A stretch of 64,000 nt of DNA from an uncultured Alphaproteobacteria bacterium. GTDB lineage: Bacteria > Pseudomonadota > Alphaproteobacteria > Paracaedibacterales > CAIULA01. Below, piece by piece: positions 21,771 to 25,691 of this stretch (position 1 is the stretch's first letter; each line of letters opens with the position of its first letter). The stretch is taken from the NCBI GenBank assembly GCA_903899945.1, contig CAIULA010000033.1, forward strand, positions 62,001-126,000, given 5' to 3'. The translations under genes were made by a program, and so were the position numbers. The notes beneath the pieces are model-generated. The model searched no databases. It worked only from the letters and a program-made list of their open reading frames with translations, and was not told the origin of the DNA.

Positions 21771-23441
21771 CTATTTCTTCTTTTTTGCTGATGCGGGTGG
21801 CCTTTGATATTCGTCATAGAAACCGCCCCAACCATCATCCCGCTGTGACTCTTCAAAATCATCTCCTTTTCTTTTATTCTCACTTTTTTTACCTTTTTTC
21901 TGCGTTACAGCAGCGACATCTGAAGAGGTGGCTGCAGCGCTTTCAGGTATTATCAATTTTTCAAATTCATCGCTCACAGTTTTTTTCAGCATGGGGATGT
22001 TTATATGTGGTAGTGAATCAGAATGCAGACTTATAAGTCGTTCATTAAACAGTACAAATTTTGCCATCTTCGTTTCATTTGAAGCCACAGCCGCAGGTAA
22101 CGCACCATAAGCTTTGATAACATCTTTTGAATGATCAAATGAGCTTTTAATCATAGTAGCTCCCGTTTCATTTTCTTTTTCGACCAACGGAACAGCATCC
22201 GTATAACAGGTAAGTGCCTGGGTTAAATAATCAACTGACCCTCCTAATTTAGATCTTGACCATGCTACGTCCCCTAAAAACACTTTTGTTGCAACATTGC
22301 GATAAGAAAAAAGACCCTCAAAACGATAACCGTCTATTTTCCTTAGAGTTTGTTCAGATGCTGCTAGTAGGGGATCAGCAGAGTCATCTCTTAAATATTC
22401 TCCGAAACGCAATTGCATTTTCCCTAAAACATATAATGTATGACGGAAGGTTAATTCACCTTCGGTACCGGCTGTGTCTCCTAAGCCTCCTAGGAGGTCA
22501 CTAATCTTTTCATATGCATTCTGGTCCCAGGCAAATTGTGAATGTCCTTGCCATAATTTACGAATTCTGTCGTCTTCTGCCCAAATGGATGTCGCTTTGC
22601 CTGATGAAACAAAGTCGCTTAAATGATGATAAAAAGATCCCGGGTTATTAAATAAATCAGAAATAAGGTCAGAATGGGAATGCCACGAAATTCCTAATTG
22701 TCTTAATTCTAAAAAGTTATTTAAAGCTATATAAGGGGTGCCGGCTAAAAGATGTAAAATTGTTTGCACAGAGTAAAGATTAAGTCTGGAAAATTCATCT
22801 AATGGGCCTGCGGCTTCGGCAGCATTAACTTTCTTGATGAGTGCGGCAGATAAAACTGATGCTTGATGAGGATTTCCTGCTTTTAATTGTCCCACGATGG
22901 CTAAAAGATCGTCCTTTATGTCTATGATGGGGGCAGGCTGATTGTACCATGTGTGAGCAAGCAGTTCCTCTACTGTTGGCAAAATACGACTTTTCATAAT
23001 GTCTATGTCTAAGCGAGCCATTGCCTCCACAGCATTGGAATCATCAAATTGTGATGATTGATGTCCGCTCAAAGGTATAAAACCTGCAATAGGCTGAGAT
23101 ATAAGATACTCTGCAGCAGAAACGTCCTTTTCCCCCTCTCTTGGAGGTTGCATGAGTGATGGGCGTCTGATCATTATTGAACGGCCTGGCTTAGGTTCAT
23201 CAGTTAATAGTTTGCTGCGGTTTACACTGCTTGCAGGAGCTGATACGGCTCGCCTCATAGGTATTGCTAAAACTGGGGAAGTTGTTAGGGGTTGGGATGC
23301 AGGCTCTGTTCGGGTCTTTGAAATTTTACCCCTGTCAAGAGGCGCTTCATCGGATGCATAAGTGATTGGGATGGCAGCACTTGTCGCTAGTAAGGAAAAG
23401 ATGCTGATGGTGAAGATTTTGGAATATGTTTTGGGGATCAT
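21771..23441 (-). CDS. Orphan secreted protein with Lys-rich tail, 556 aa
   Basis: Family not recognised. The start is ATG 23441, which has AAAGAGGTAACT in front and gives a clean signal peptide (residues 1-28, cleavage near TYA/SD); the frame stays open upstream to 23558 but those residues look non-coding. After a Pro/Ser-rich low-complexity region (about 30-105) come many helical segments, TPR-like by eye but without a firm repeat. The tail is basic and low-complexity (KKGKKSENKRK near residue 520; KKKK at the end) with an aromatic DDGWGGFYDEY stretch. Two TTACC-N4-GGTAA palindromes upstream match those before hipB, so it may be HipB-regulated. It could be an exported effector. Confidence 0.75.
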   Translation of the reverse strand: MIPKTYSKIFTISIFSLLATSAAIPITYASDEAPLDRGKISKTRTEPASQPLTTSPVLAIPMRRAVSAPASSVNRSKLLTDEPKPGRSIMIRRPSLMQPPREGEKDVSAAEYLISQPIAGFIPLSGHQSSQFDDSNAVEAMARLDIDIMKSRILPTVEELLAHTWYNQPAPIIDIKDDLLAIVGQLKAGNPHQASVLSAALIKKVNAAEAAGPLDEFSRLNLYSVQTILHLLAGTPYIALNNFLELRQLGISWHSHSDLISDLFNNPGSFYHHLSDFVSSGKATSIWAEDDRIRKLWQGHSQFAWDQNAYEKISDLLGGLGDTAGTEGELTFRHTLYVLGKMQLRFGEYLRDDSADPLLAASEQTLRKIDGYRFEGLFSYRNVATKVFLGDVAWSRSKLGGSVDYLTQALTCYTDAVPLVEKENETGATMIKSSFDHSKDVIKAYGALPAAVASNETKMAKFVLFNERLISLHSDSLPHINIPMLKKTVSDEFEKLIIPESAAATSSDVAAVTQKKGKKSENKRKGDDFEESQRDDGWGGFYDEYQRPPASAKKKK

Positions 23442-23613
23442 AGTTACCTCTTTATAATTTAAAGATTTAATAATAATTATTCGTAATAACACGAAAGTAT
23501 TAGGGATGCTAATAATGTGGAGAAAAATAGAAAATGGTATCAACGTGCTTTTTTGCATATTGACATTAATGTTTTTTTCTGAATGCTTTCGAGAGCTGGA
23601 TTTTGATAATTGC

Positions 23614-23676
23614 TTACCGATTGGTAATATTTAGTGATTGATGGTTTGAAGTAGGTAAAAATTTACCATTCGGTAA
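23614..23676. promoter_or_regulatory. Pair of hip-type palindromes upstream of the 556-aa secreted gene
   Basis: TTACCGATTGGTAA at 23614-23627 and TTACCATTCGGTAA at 23663-23676, start-to-start spacing 49 bp. The same motif pair with the same spacing lies in front of hipB (25211-25273), and the segment after the second palindrome (GTAAGTTTT) is shared too. Probable HipB binding sites; they lie between the hipA stop and the secreted gene. Confidence 0.55.
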
Positions 23677-23690
23677 GTTTTTTGGGGAGA

Positions 23691-24977
23691 TTATTTGTCT
23701 TTTAGCCTTTCCAAAAGGGTATCTATATTTCCTTGAATTACACCTCGTAATTTCCCAGAAAATGCTGTTTCTTCGTCACTCAAGCTATTGTATTTTTTTG
23801 ATATTTGAATAACTCTATCCATCGCTATGGAAATTAATTTGCCCATTTTCTGTGCTTCTTTCTTAAATTCAGGGAATGATAAGCCAACGGATTCACAAAA
23901 TTCTTTCCAATGTTTTGCAAATACATTCTTTTCTTCATATTCACCACCAATTTTCATAGCCATTTTTTGAGAGTGCCCTTCATAAATTTGACAACAAAGA
24001 ACATCATACAAAGGGGCAAGCTTTGGCGGTGTATGATCTCCATAAAGAATGGAAAAGTTTTTTCCATGAGCATCTGTATTACCTACAACAAAATTGAATA
24101 TGATGTATTTAGTAAAGTTAATACGATCGATTAAATTTAAAAGCTTAAAACAATCCTCTAATGAAGGACCTCCTTCGTTTTGATATTTTTGCGTTGGTAA
24201 TTTACCTAAGGCTTGGCAAAAATCTTCTTGATGGAGTCTTTTAATGTATCGTGTGCCAAAATCGCGATCATAACGTTGGACAATAACACAGGGAGTATTA
24301 CCGATTTTTCTAAATGATACGTTTGCTGCATTTAAATGGCTTGCTTGGGCAAGCGTTAAGCAGAAATATTCATTAAAAGCGCTGTTTGGAAAAGTAGCTA
24401 TTTCAGGTTTTAAAATATGAGTTGAAGGCATTCCATTTCTTGGAATTCCAATTTTTTCACTTACTGGATTTAAGGGATCTACGTAAATACCTGCTTTATT
24501 CTGTACTCCGGCAAGCGATAATCTTATATCGTCAATGCCATGAAAAAGGGGATTTGAGGTTGAAAGTTTTTTTATATAACTTTCAATTTCTTCATCAGTT
24601 TTAAAGTCAACGTCAAGCGTTTCAAATTCAACTTCACGGATGGGTTCATCAATCTCGTGAAATGAAACGGCTCCTGGGCAATCCTGACCAATGGCCTGCA
24701 GTAATCTAAAAGAATTGCGCGCACTAATCCCATGTCTTTTAGCAATAGTATCTCGCGCAGCTTCACTATCAGGCAGTAGTCCTTCAAAAAATGGTCTACA
24801 TTCCTTTTCTGAAAAAATGCGCTCATTCATTGATAAGGGCAAGGACTGGGATATGGATACTTGAGATTCTGGAAATGGCTTTAAATAATGAAAATACATT
24901 TTTCCATTACCGTCTTGCCCCAAGATGCCCATTGGTTTTCCGTGCATACGAACATTGAGAATATTATTATTGTTCAT
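23691..24977 (-). CDS. hipA: HipA-family Ser/Thr kinase toxin
   Basis: Toxin kinase of a type II toxin-antitoxin system; Escherichia coli HipA phosphorylates glutamyl-tRNA synthetase and induces dormancy. Motifs in order: the autophosphorylation loop RLSLAGVQNKAG (Ser154), THILKPE near 187, FNEYFC near 201, VQRYDRDF near 233, LHQEDFCQALG near 248, the catalytic GNTDAHGKNFS (Asp302) and APLYDVL (Asp325, metal). All key residues are present, so the kinase looks functional. Length 428 is normal. Its ATG overlaps the hipB stop by 11 nt, giving antitoxin-first coupling. Confidence 0.95.
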   Translation of the reverse strand: MNNNNILNVRMHGKPMGILGQDGNGKMYFHYLKPFPESQVSISQSLPLSMNERIFSEKECRPFFEGLLPDSEAARDTIAKRHGISARNSFRLLQAIGQDCPGAVSFHEIDEPIREVEFETLDVDFKTDEEIESYIKKLSTSNPLFHGIDDIRLSLAGVQNKAGIYVDPLNPVSEKIGIPRNGMPSTHILKPEIATFPNSAFNEYFCLTLAQASHLNAANVSFRKIGNTPCVIVQRYDRDFGTRYIKRLHQEDFCQALGKLPTQKYQNEGGPSLEDCFKLLNLIDRINFTKYIIFNFVVGNTDAHGKNFSILYGDHTPPKLAPLYDVLCCQIYEGHSQKMAMKIGGEYEEKNVFAKHWKEFCESVGLSFPEFKKEAQKMGKLISIAMDRVIQISKKYNSLSDEETAFSGKLRGVIQGNIDTLLERLKDK

Positions 24978-25194
24978 GTGAAATCACCGGTAGTTCAAGG
25001 TTAACCGTAATTCCCAACATACCAAGGATTTGAAGAACCTTGCCCAGTTGGCAAGTTTGTTTTCCTTTTTCTAAATCCACAATAAATCGTATGCCGGTTC
25101 CACAGGAAAACGCCAAGTCCCGTTGCCTAAGGCCCAAGGTTTTTCTTGCTTTTTTCACTGCTTGTCCGATTTCTTCGGGGGTAATACGATGCAT
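24967..25194 (-). CDS. hipB: HipB-like XRE-family antitoxin
   Basis: A 75-residue helix-turn-helix protein: IGQAVKKARKTLGLRQRDLA is the first half of the HTH and GIRFIVDLEKGKQTCQLGKVLQIL the rest, as in HipB. It would bind HipA and repress its own operon. The two palindromes at 25211-25273 upstream are its likely operators. The gene stands 92 bp after rbfA, a position often held by truB or rpsO in alphaproteobacteria. Confidence 0.92.
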   Translation of the reverse strand: MHRITPEEIGQAVKKARKTLGLRQRDLAFSCGTGIRFIVDLEKGKQTCQLGKVLQILGMLGITVNLELPVISHEQ

Positions 25195-25210
25195 AGAATT
25201 CTACCAATAT

Positions 25211-25273
25211 TTACCGATAGGGAAAATATGCCACGAAGTTGCCGGAAAATCAATAAAAATTACTGATCGGTAA
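25211..25273. promoter_or_regulatory. Pair of palindromic operators upstream of hipBA
   Basis: TTACCGATAGGGAA at 25211-25224 and TTACTGATCGGTAA at 25260-25273, spacing 49 bp, about 17 and 66 bp from the hipB start. With the 23614-23676 pair they define the consensus TTACC-N4-GGTAA. This is the expected location for antitoxin autoregulation. Binding is inference. Confidence 0.65.
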
Positions 25274-25286
25274 GTTTTGATCTGTC

Positions 25287-25691
25287 TTACTTCTCAATTT
25301 TCCTAAACAAATCCTCAATTTTTTTGGTAGCCTCAAAGGCTAAATCAATTTGAAAACTTAATTTCGGCACGACGCGAAGTTGCAGTTTTTGGGACAGTTC
25401 TTTTCTGAAATAGCCGGTAGAGGCTTTTAAAAAGGCAATTGTATCTTCTTGGTGTTCGCCGCCAAGGGGCATAACATAAAGAGTTGCATGTTTTAGGTCA
25501 GGCGAAACTTTTATATCAGTGATTGTAACTGTGGTTGGCAAAGCCATCAATTCACCGTCCTCGGTATAAAGAGGGGGGATATCCCCCCGCATTAACGTAG
25601 AGGACACATAAAAACGAATCTCTTGAGCTACGCGTTCTTGGCGGTGACTCGGCGCCTTACTCGGCACAAAGAGATTAAGGGATTTAACCAA
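25287..25691 (-). CDS. rbfA: Ribosome-binding factor A
   Basis: 30S maturation and cold-adaptation factor. RQERVAQEIRFYVSSTL near the N-terminus, TITDIKVSPDLKHATLYVMPLG near 55 and the C-terminal PKLSFQIDLAFEATKKIEDL are RbfA hallmarks, within a KH-like fold. Length 134. The likely start is TTG at 25691 (GGGGTATAAGC upstream); no suitable ATG lies near. Last gene of rimP-nusA-infB-rbfA, 17 bp after infB. Confidence 0.95.
   Translation of the reverse strand: MVKSLNLFVPSKAPSHRQERVAQEIRFYVSSTLMRGDIPPLYTEDGELMALPTTVTITDIKVSPDLKHATLYVMPLGGEHQEDTIAFLKASTGYFRKELSQKLQLRVVPKLSFQIDLAFEATKKIEDLFRKIEK

Follow-up and report, generated by a model that had tools for sequence, protein, structure and literature searches.

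Within the window (the entire 64,000-nt stretch of DNA that was analysed), a two-gene hipBA module lies between rbfA and a gene for a secreted protein and is associated with two pairs of palindromes, such that the order along the minus strand is rbfA, pair B, hipB, hipA, pair A and the secreted-protein gene. hipB (24967–25194, minus strand) encodes a 75-aa Y4mF-family antitoxin with an Xre-type helix-turn-helix (HTH) domain (TIGR03070, Pfam HTH_3), which scores 76.6 bits against TIGR03070 and so exceeds the curated cut-off of 71.65. hipA (23691–24977, minus strand), located downstream with an 11 bp overlap, encodes a 428-aa kinase-family toxin with Couple_hipA and HipA_C domains. On the upstream side, hipBA has a conserved neighbour in rbfA (25287–25691, minus strand; Pfam RBFA), whose orthologue in G001, one of two sister species used for comparison (G001 and G002), is 92% identical. 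At the other end, the secreted-protein gene (21771–23441, minus strand) encodes 556 aa with an apparent signal peptide and a Lys-rich tail; this protein is confined to the genus, has no match in Pfam or NCBIfam and has a predicted structure that is largely helical and of low confidence (mean pLDDT 48), which did not suffice for a fold search. Immediately upstream of it is a block of ~160 bp (23442–23601, minus strand) that is common to both sister species and is presumed to be its promoter region.

A pattern search confirmed the palindrome starts given by an earlier, sequence-only reading of this DNA (23614, 23663, 25211 and 25260), as well as the start-to-start distance of 49 bp in both pairs; the motif that it named, TTACC-N4-GGTAA, is exact at 23614 and 23663 and carries one mismatch each at 25211 and 25260. 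Pair A consists of TTACCGATTGGTAA (23614–23627; position-specific scoring matrix (PSSM) score 14.2), adjoining the secreted-protein gene, and TTACCATTCGGTAA (23663–23676; PSSM 16.3), adjoining hipA with the hipA stop 14 bp away. Pair B consists of a putative hipB-proximal operator, TTACCGATAGGGAA (25211–25224; PSSM 19.1), 16 bp from the hipB ATG, and a putative distal operator, TTACTGATCGGTAA (25260–25273; PSSM 21.3), 13 bp from the rbfA stop; no strand is assigned to any of the four sites. These scores stand against a window background with a mean of −42.9 and a standard deviation of 11.5. Scored as pairs with the 24-position PSSM, pairs B and A, at 40.3 and 30.5, were the only ones in the window to qualify, and no third site was found by PSSM at 48–51 bp from either pair. 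GTAAGTTTT follows the second site in pairs A and B alike, as previously noted.

Across the 1.69-Mb genome, 49-bp pairs with up to three mismatches occur only as pairs A and B (reversed control pattern, 0), so that the genome-wide search proposed with the sequence-only reading returned only these two places; pairs with a degenerate motif at a 50-bp pitch were absent from the same 1.69 Mb. In 58 related genomes, the reversed control gave about ten 3-mismatch pairs in total and the real pattern two further pairs, by which measure lone 3-mismatch pairs elsewhere are noise and pairs with 0 or 2 mismatches are not.

To describe the arrangement expected before hipB, we used 80 named hipB loci (L047–L126) from many phyla, taken from a scan for HipB relatives; as the loci were picked by HTH similarity to this HipB, they stand for its subfamily and not for HipB proteins at large. 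Two to four TTMCCGNNCGGKAA palindromes at a 48–51 bp pitch precede hipB in 75/80 loci (three sites in 58/80), with spacings of 49 bp (82 times) and 50 bp (52 times), and the operator nearest hipB is often within 1–27 bp of the start codon. The operator core is conserved to about AATA-TTMCC..GGKAA-TATT. Since this core reaches into AT-rich flanks, the flanking letters shared by pairs A and B are at least partly operator context, not evidence of duplication. A scan of 908 kb with the 24-position PSSM, in which all spacings of 30–70 bp were allowed, returned 181 pairs, 180 of them at 47–51 bp (with a few pairs counted repeatedly owing to overlap between loci). Single TTACC-N4-GGTAA sites do arise by chance: the whole genome holds four exact ones, two of them in the window (0.05 expected) and the others (on C3 and C36) unpaired and near the chance count in number. 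Nevertheless, the specificity of the pair spacing, together with the lack of any further 49-bp pair with 0–3 mismatches in 1.69 Mb, leaves practically no credence for the palindromes of pairs A and B being accidental.

Pair B has TTMCCGNNCGGKAA sites at a 48–51 bp pitch before hipB, as derived from these relatives, and matches the motif, pitch and flanks of the 75/80 hipB promoters, which bears out the suggestion that one of the pairs is the hipBA operator. Furthermore, it brackets a predicted hipBA promoter (25225–25253, minus strand; TTGATT-N17-CATATT, as read from the letters) in the geometry of HipB-family promoters; TTGTTT-N17-TATAAT occupies the equivalent register in L006, a relative with a 69% identical HipB. 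Both pair B sites would be occupied by HipB dimers, probably together with HipA, and hipBA would thereby be shut off. Motif, pitch and extended flanks support the assignment of both pairs as putative HipB-type operators. In the Obscuribacterales MAG locus L076, an extra 50-bp pair (L076:1255–1318) was observed ~390 bp upstream of hipB, besides the hipB operators.

The module resembles Y4mF-family hipBA (TIGR03070/TIGR03071) in a HipB above cut-off, in operators of the same sequence and 49–50 bp pitch bracketing the hipB promoter, and in a HipA with N- and C-terminal HipA domains that is downstream of and overlaps hipB; it differs in that these relatives usually have three promoter sites rather than two, and none has a second pair after hipA (63 checked). 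E. coli hipBA likewise has several spaced palindromes, there bound by HipB for hipBA autorepression, but its four operators are TATCC-N8-GGATA (PMC3376134), and it differs in half-sites and in spacing, for which the O1O2 oligo implies a pitch of about 28 bp (PMC3376134). TATCC-N8-GGATA has no exact match in the window, where two one-mismatch sites (1.55 expected) lie outside the hipBA promoter. Legionella hipBST, with three evenly spaced inverted repeats before hipB (18-nt sites, 53-bp gaps; PMC10653801), is alike in its evenly spaced operators, and its HipB(Lp), 8ezt, is the closest solved HipB by sequence. However, hipBST is a tripartite locus, and in place of a separate hipS and a shortened HipT kinase we find two genes and a full-length HipA with its own Couple_hipA domain. 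Operator arrays and extra HipB sites are thus already known in kind; the details that are new are that one hipBA has arrays at both ends and that the pitch is fixed at 49–50 bp throughout the subfamily. Our search of the literature on Y4mF, outside which the original Shewanella HipB paper lay, found no description of 49–50 bp operator arrays.

As pair A equals pair B in site sequence and pitch, HipB should bind it too, and we hold such binding to be highly probable. The outer half-sites of pair A are perfect, and its spacer is without clear homology to that of pair B; if pair A derives from pair B, the perfect half-sites suggest that the operators are being maintained. Among 63 relatives in which hipA is followed by 400 bp or more of sequence, none has a pair near the hipA 3′ end (best score −12), and pair A is known from one genome only.

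The secreted-protein gene is present in both sister species (identities of 69% and 51%), neither of which has a hipA match or an operator pair beside this gene. Alignments upstream of the gene begin at 23601 for both sisters, which places the end of the ancestral upstream block 12 bp short of pair A. From the secreted-protein gene to rbfA, the G001 interval contains, instead of hipBA, an HNH gene and a gene for a 172-aa secreted protein. Just upstream of the 172-aa gene is a degenerate 49-bp pair (L038:8375–8437; TTAATGATCGGGAA and TTACCGTTCAGTAA) with a score of 27.5, none being seen in simulations of the same stretch; its spacer identity to pair A (11/35) and to pair B (9/35) is near chance in both cases. 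A second HipB in G001 was considered as the user of this pair and rejected, its best TIGR03070 match being below cut-off and without such operators; the only other HTH of HipB kind in G001 adjoins a nucleotidyltransferase-like ORF, and no such operators are found there. No HipB or HipA relics were found in the sister intervals, and rbfA was not found in G002, the assembly of which is only 72% complete. Upstream of the secreted-protein gene, both sisters also carry an inverted repeat of GGCGG..CCGC type (L036, L037), which the window genome lacks at this place. A comparison with relatives lacking hipBA, advised in the sequence-only reading, has thus yielded a sister whose corresponding interval holds just one operator pair, in decayed form, and turnover of hip modules in the rbfA-to-secreted-gene interval is supported. 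The simplest story is that hip modules came and went here and left arrays behind, in an order of events that we infer.

Pair A does stand upstream of the 556-aa secreted-protein gene, as first noted, being 172 bp before its ATG with no gene between, and this position raises the question of whether HipB controls that gene. HipB or HipBA at pair A would then repress the gene, or release it at high HipA, coupling growth arrest to export. The perfect arms of pair A, the shared strand order of pair and gene, and the similar position of the G001 pair upstream of another secreted-protein gene (172 aa) are in keeping with such a regulon, for which there is also precedent: a review (PMC10305079) reports repression of relA, eutH and fadH by E. 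coli HipB and binding of HigA to mvfR. Those E. coli targets are alike in being HipB sites away from the hipB promoter, but there the effect was shown by experiment, whereas binding and effect at pair A are deduced. Against a regulon, the gene and its conserved block persist in two sisters that lack both hipBA and an adjoining pair, no operator is conserved upstream of the orthologues in G001 or G002, and the genome holds no other pair and therefore no second member. Moreover, pair A is outside the conserved block, and its spacer, inspected by eye at the register of the relatives, has no hipB-like −35/−10 on the minus strand (a PSSM of the spacer was uninformative). Co-repression of the exported protein by HipB, as originally proposed, is therefore not borne out, pair A being 12 bp outside a block conserved in sisters without pair or hipBA, and we consider a regulon of this kind unlikely. 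A bolder version, in which HipBA bridges the arrays across 1.6 kb, looping the operon and making hipBA and the secreted-protein gene one switch, would couple persister entry with the release of a genus-specific exported protein; we think it quite unlikely.

The alternative offered in the sequence-only reading, that direct repeats of roughly 75 bp mark an inserted hipBA unit able to recombine out, founders on the repeats themselves, which are absent: direct matching of the two pairs extends over no more than 24 nt (83%), centred on one palindrome, and the 35-bp spacers agree at 12/35 positions directly and 15/35 inverted (shuffled mean 10.4). Homology is hence confined to the operators, and repeats bounding an excisable unit fail. 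What survives of this idea is the turnover of hip modules, which the hipBA-less sister supports, not that mechanism. Pair A was also considered as the hipB promoter copied in inverted orientation: the 15/35 inverted spacer match (P ~0.05), which begins with a local stretch of 10/12, was suggestive, but the idea was dropped. A mobile or excisable unit with the two pairs as its end repeats could still be argued from the outermost sites, which form a 27-nt inverted repeat (85% complementary), from TTTTGAT immediately outside both ends of the two-pair unit, and from the lack of hipBA in both sisters, one of which retains a single pair. Yet, beyond a few flanking bases, the homology of the pairs consists of palindromes, which by their nature yield inverted repeats; no transposase, integrase or other recombinase is encoded among the ORFs of the unit; the second pair is absent from 63 other hipBA loci; and the G001 interval differs also by its HNH and 172-aa genes and is thus not a simple empty site. 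Neither end repeats beyond the operators nor a target-site duplication with a recombinase was found at this hipBA, and we regard the excisable unit as very unlikely. Pair A may alternatively act in RNA, as a 14–15 bp stem with a long loop that, in hipA read-through RNA, stabilises or ends the hipBA message. Each of its sites is close to the reverse complement of the other, so that the RNA across it (67 nt) folds unusually well (−17 kcal/mol, z −6.9), unlike that of pair B (z −0.8) or the G001 pair (z 0.0). However, no U-run follows the stem, pair A is absent from the terminator scan output, and the same motif and pitch recur beside or upstream of hipB promoters in dozens of loci, which indicates a DNA-level signal; a role in RNA is accordingly rated as highly improbable.

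Of the accounts considered, we lean towards pair A being an additional array, either part of, or a remnant of, hip modules that have entered and left the region between rbfA and the secreted-protein gene; we judge this probable, with appreciable room for doubt. This reading draws on the position of pair A at the end of the module and outside the ancestral block, on the lack of a counterpart at the other hipBA loci checked and on the decayed orphan pair of the hipBA-less sister. If active today, pair A would serve as an auxiliary HipB site and not as a dedicated operator of the secreted-protein gene, for example by tethering repressor 1.6 kb from pair B or by blocking hipBA read-through. With its additional array behind hipA, the locus lends itself to testing directly whether HipBA forms DNA loops or acts on adjacent genes.

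The pitch rule also makes HipB sites findable in raw genomes, and orphan arrays found by it may point to hipBA modules that have been lost or have moved elsewhere. Among 385 genomes of the class, a strict search recovered pairs in seven, five of which adjoin a hipB-like gene; the remaining two, G349 and G393, are other Alphaproteobacteria with orphan pairs and no hipBA nearby. The G393 pair (L150:4863–4925) is a 49-bp pair of HipB type with no hipB within 1.5 kb. The G349 pair (L149:5170–5232), a strong 49-bp pair again with no hipB within 1.5 kb, lies ~40 bp after an AbiEii toxin gene and is followed by a convergent WYL-domain gene, with a phage-type integrase on the same stretch.
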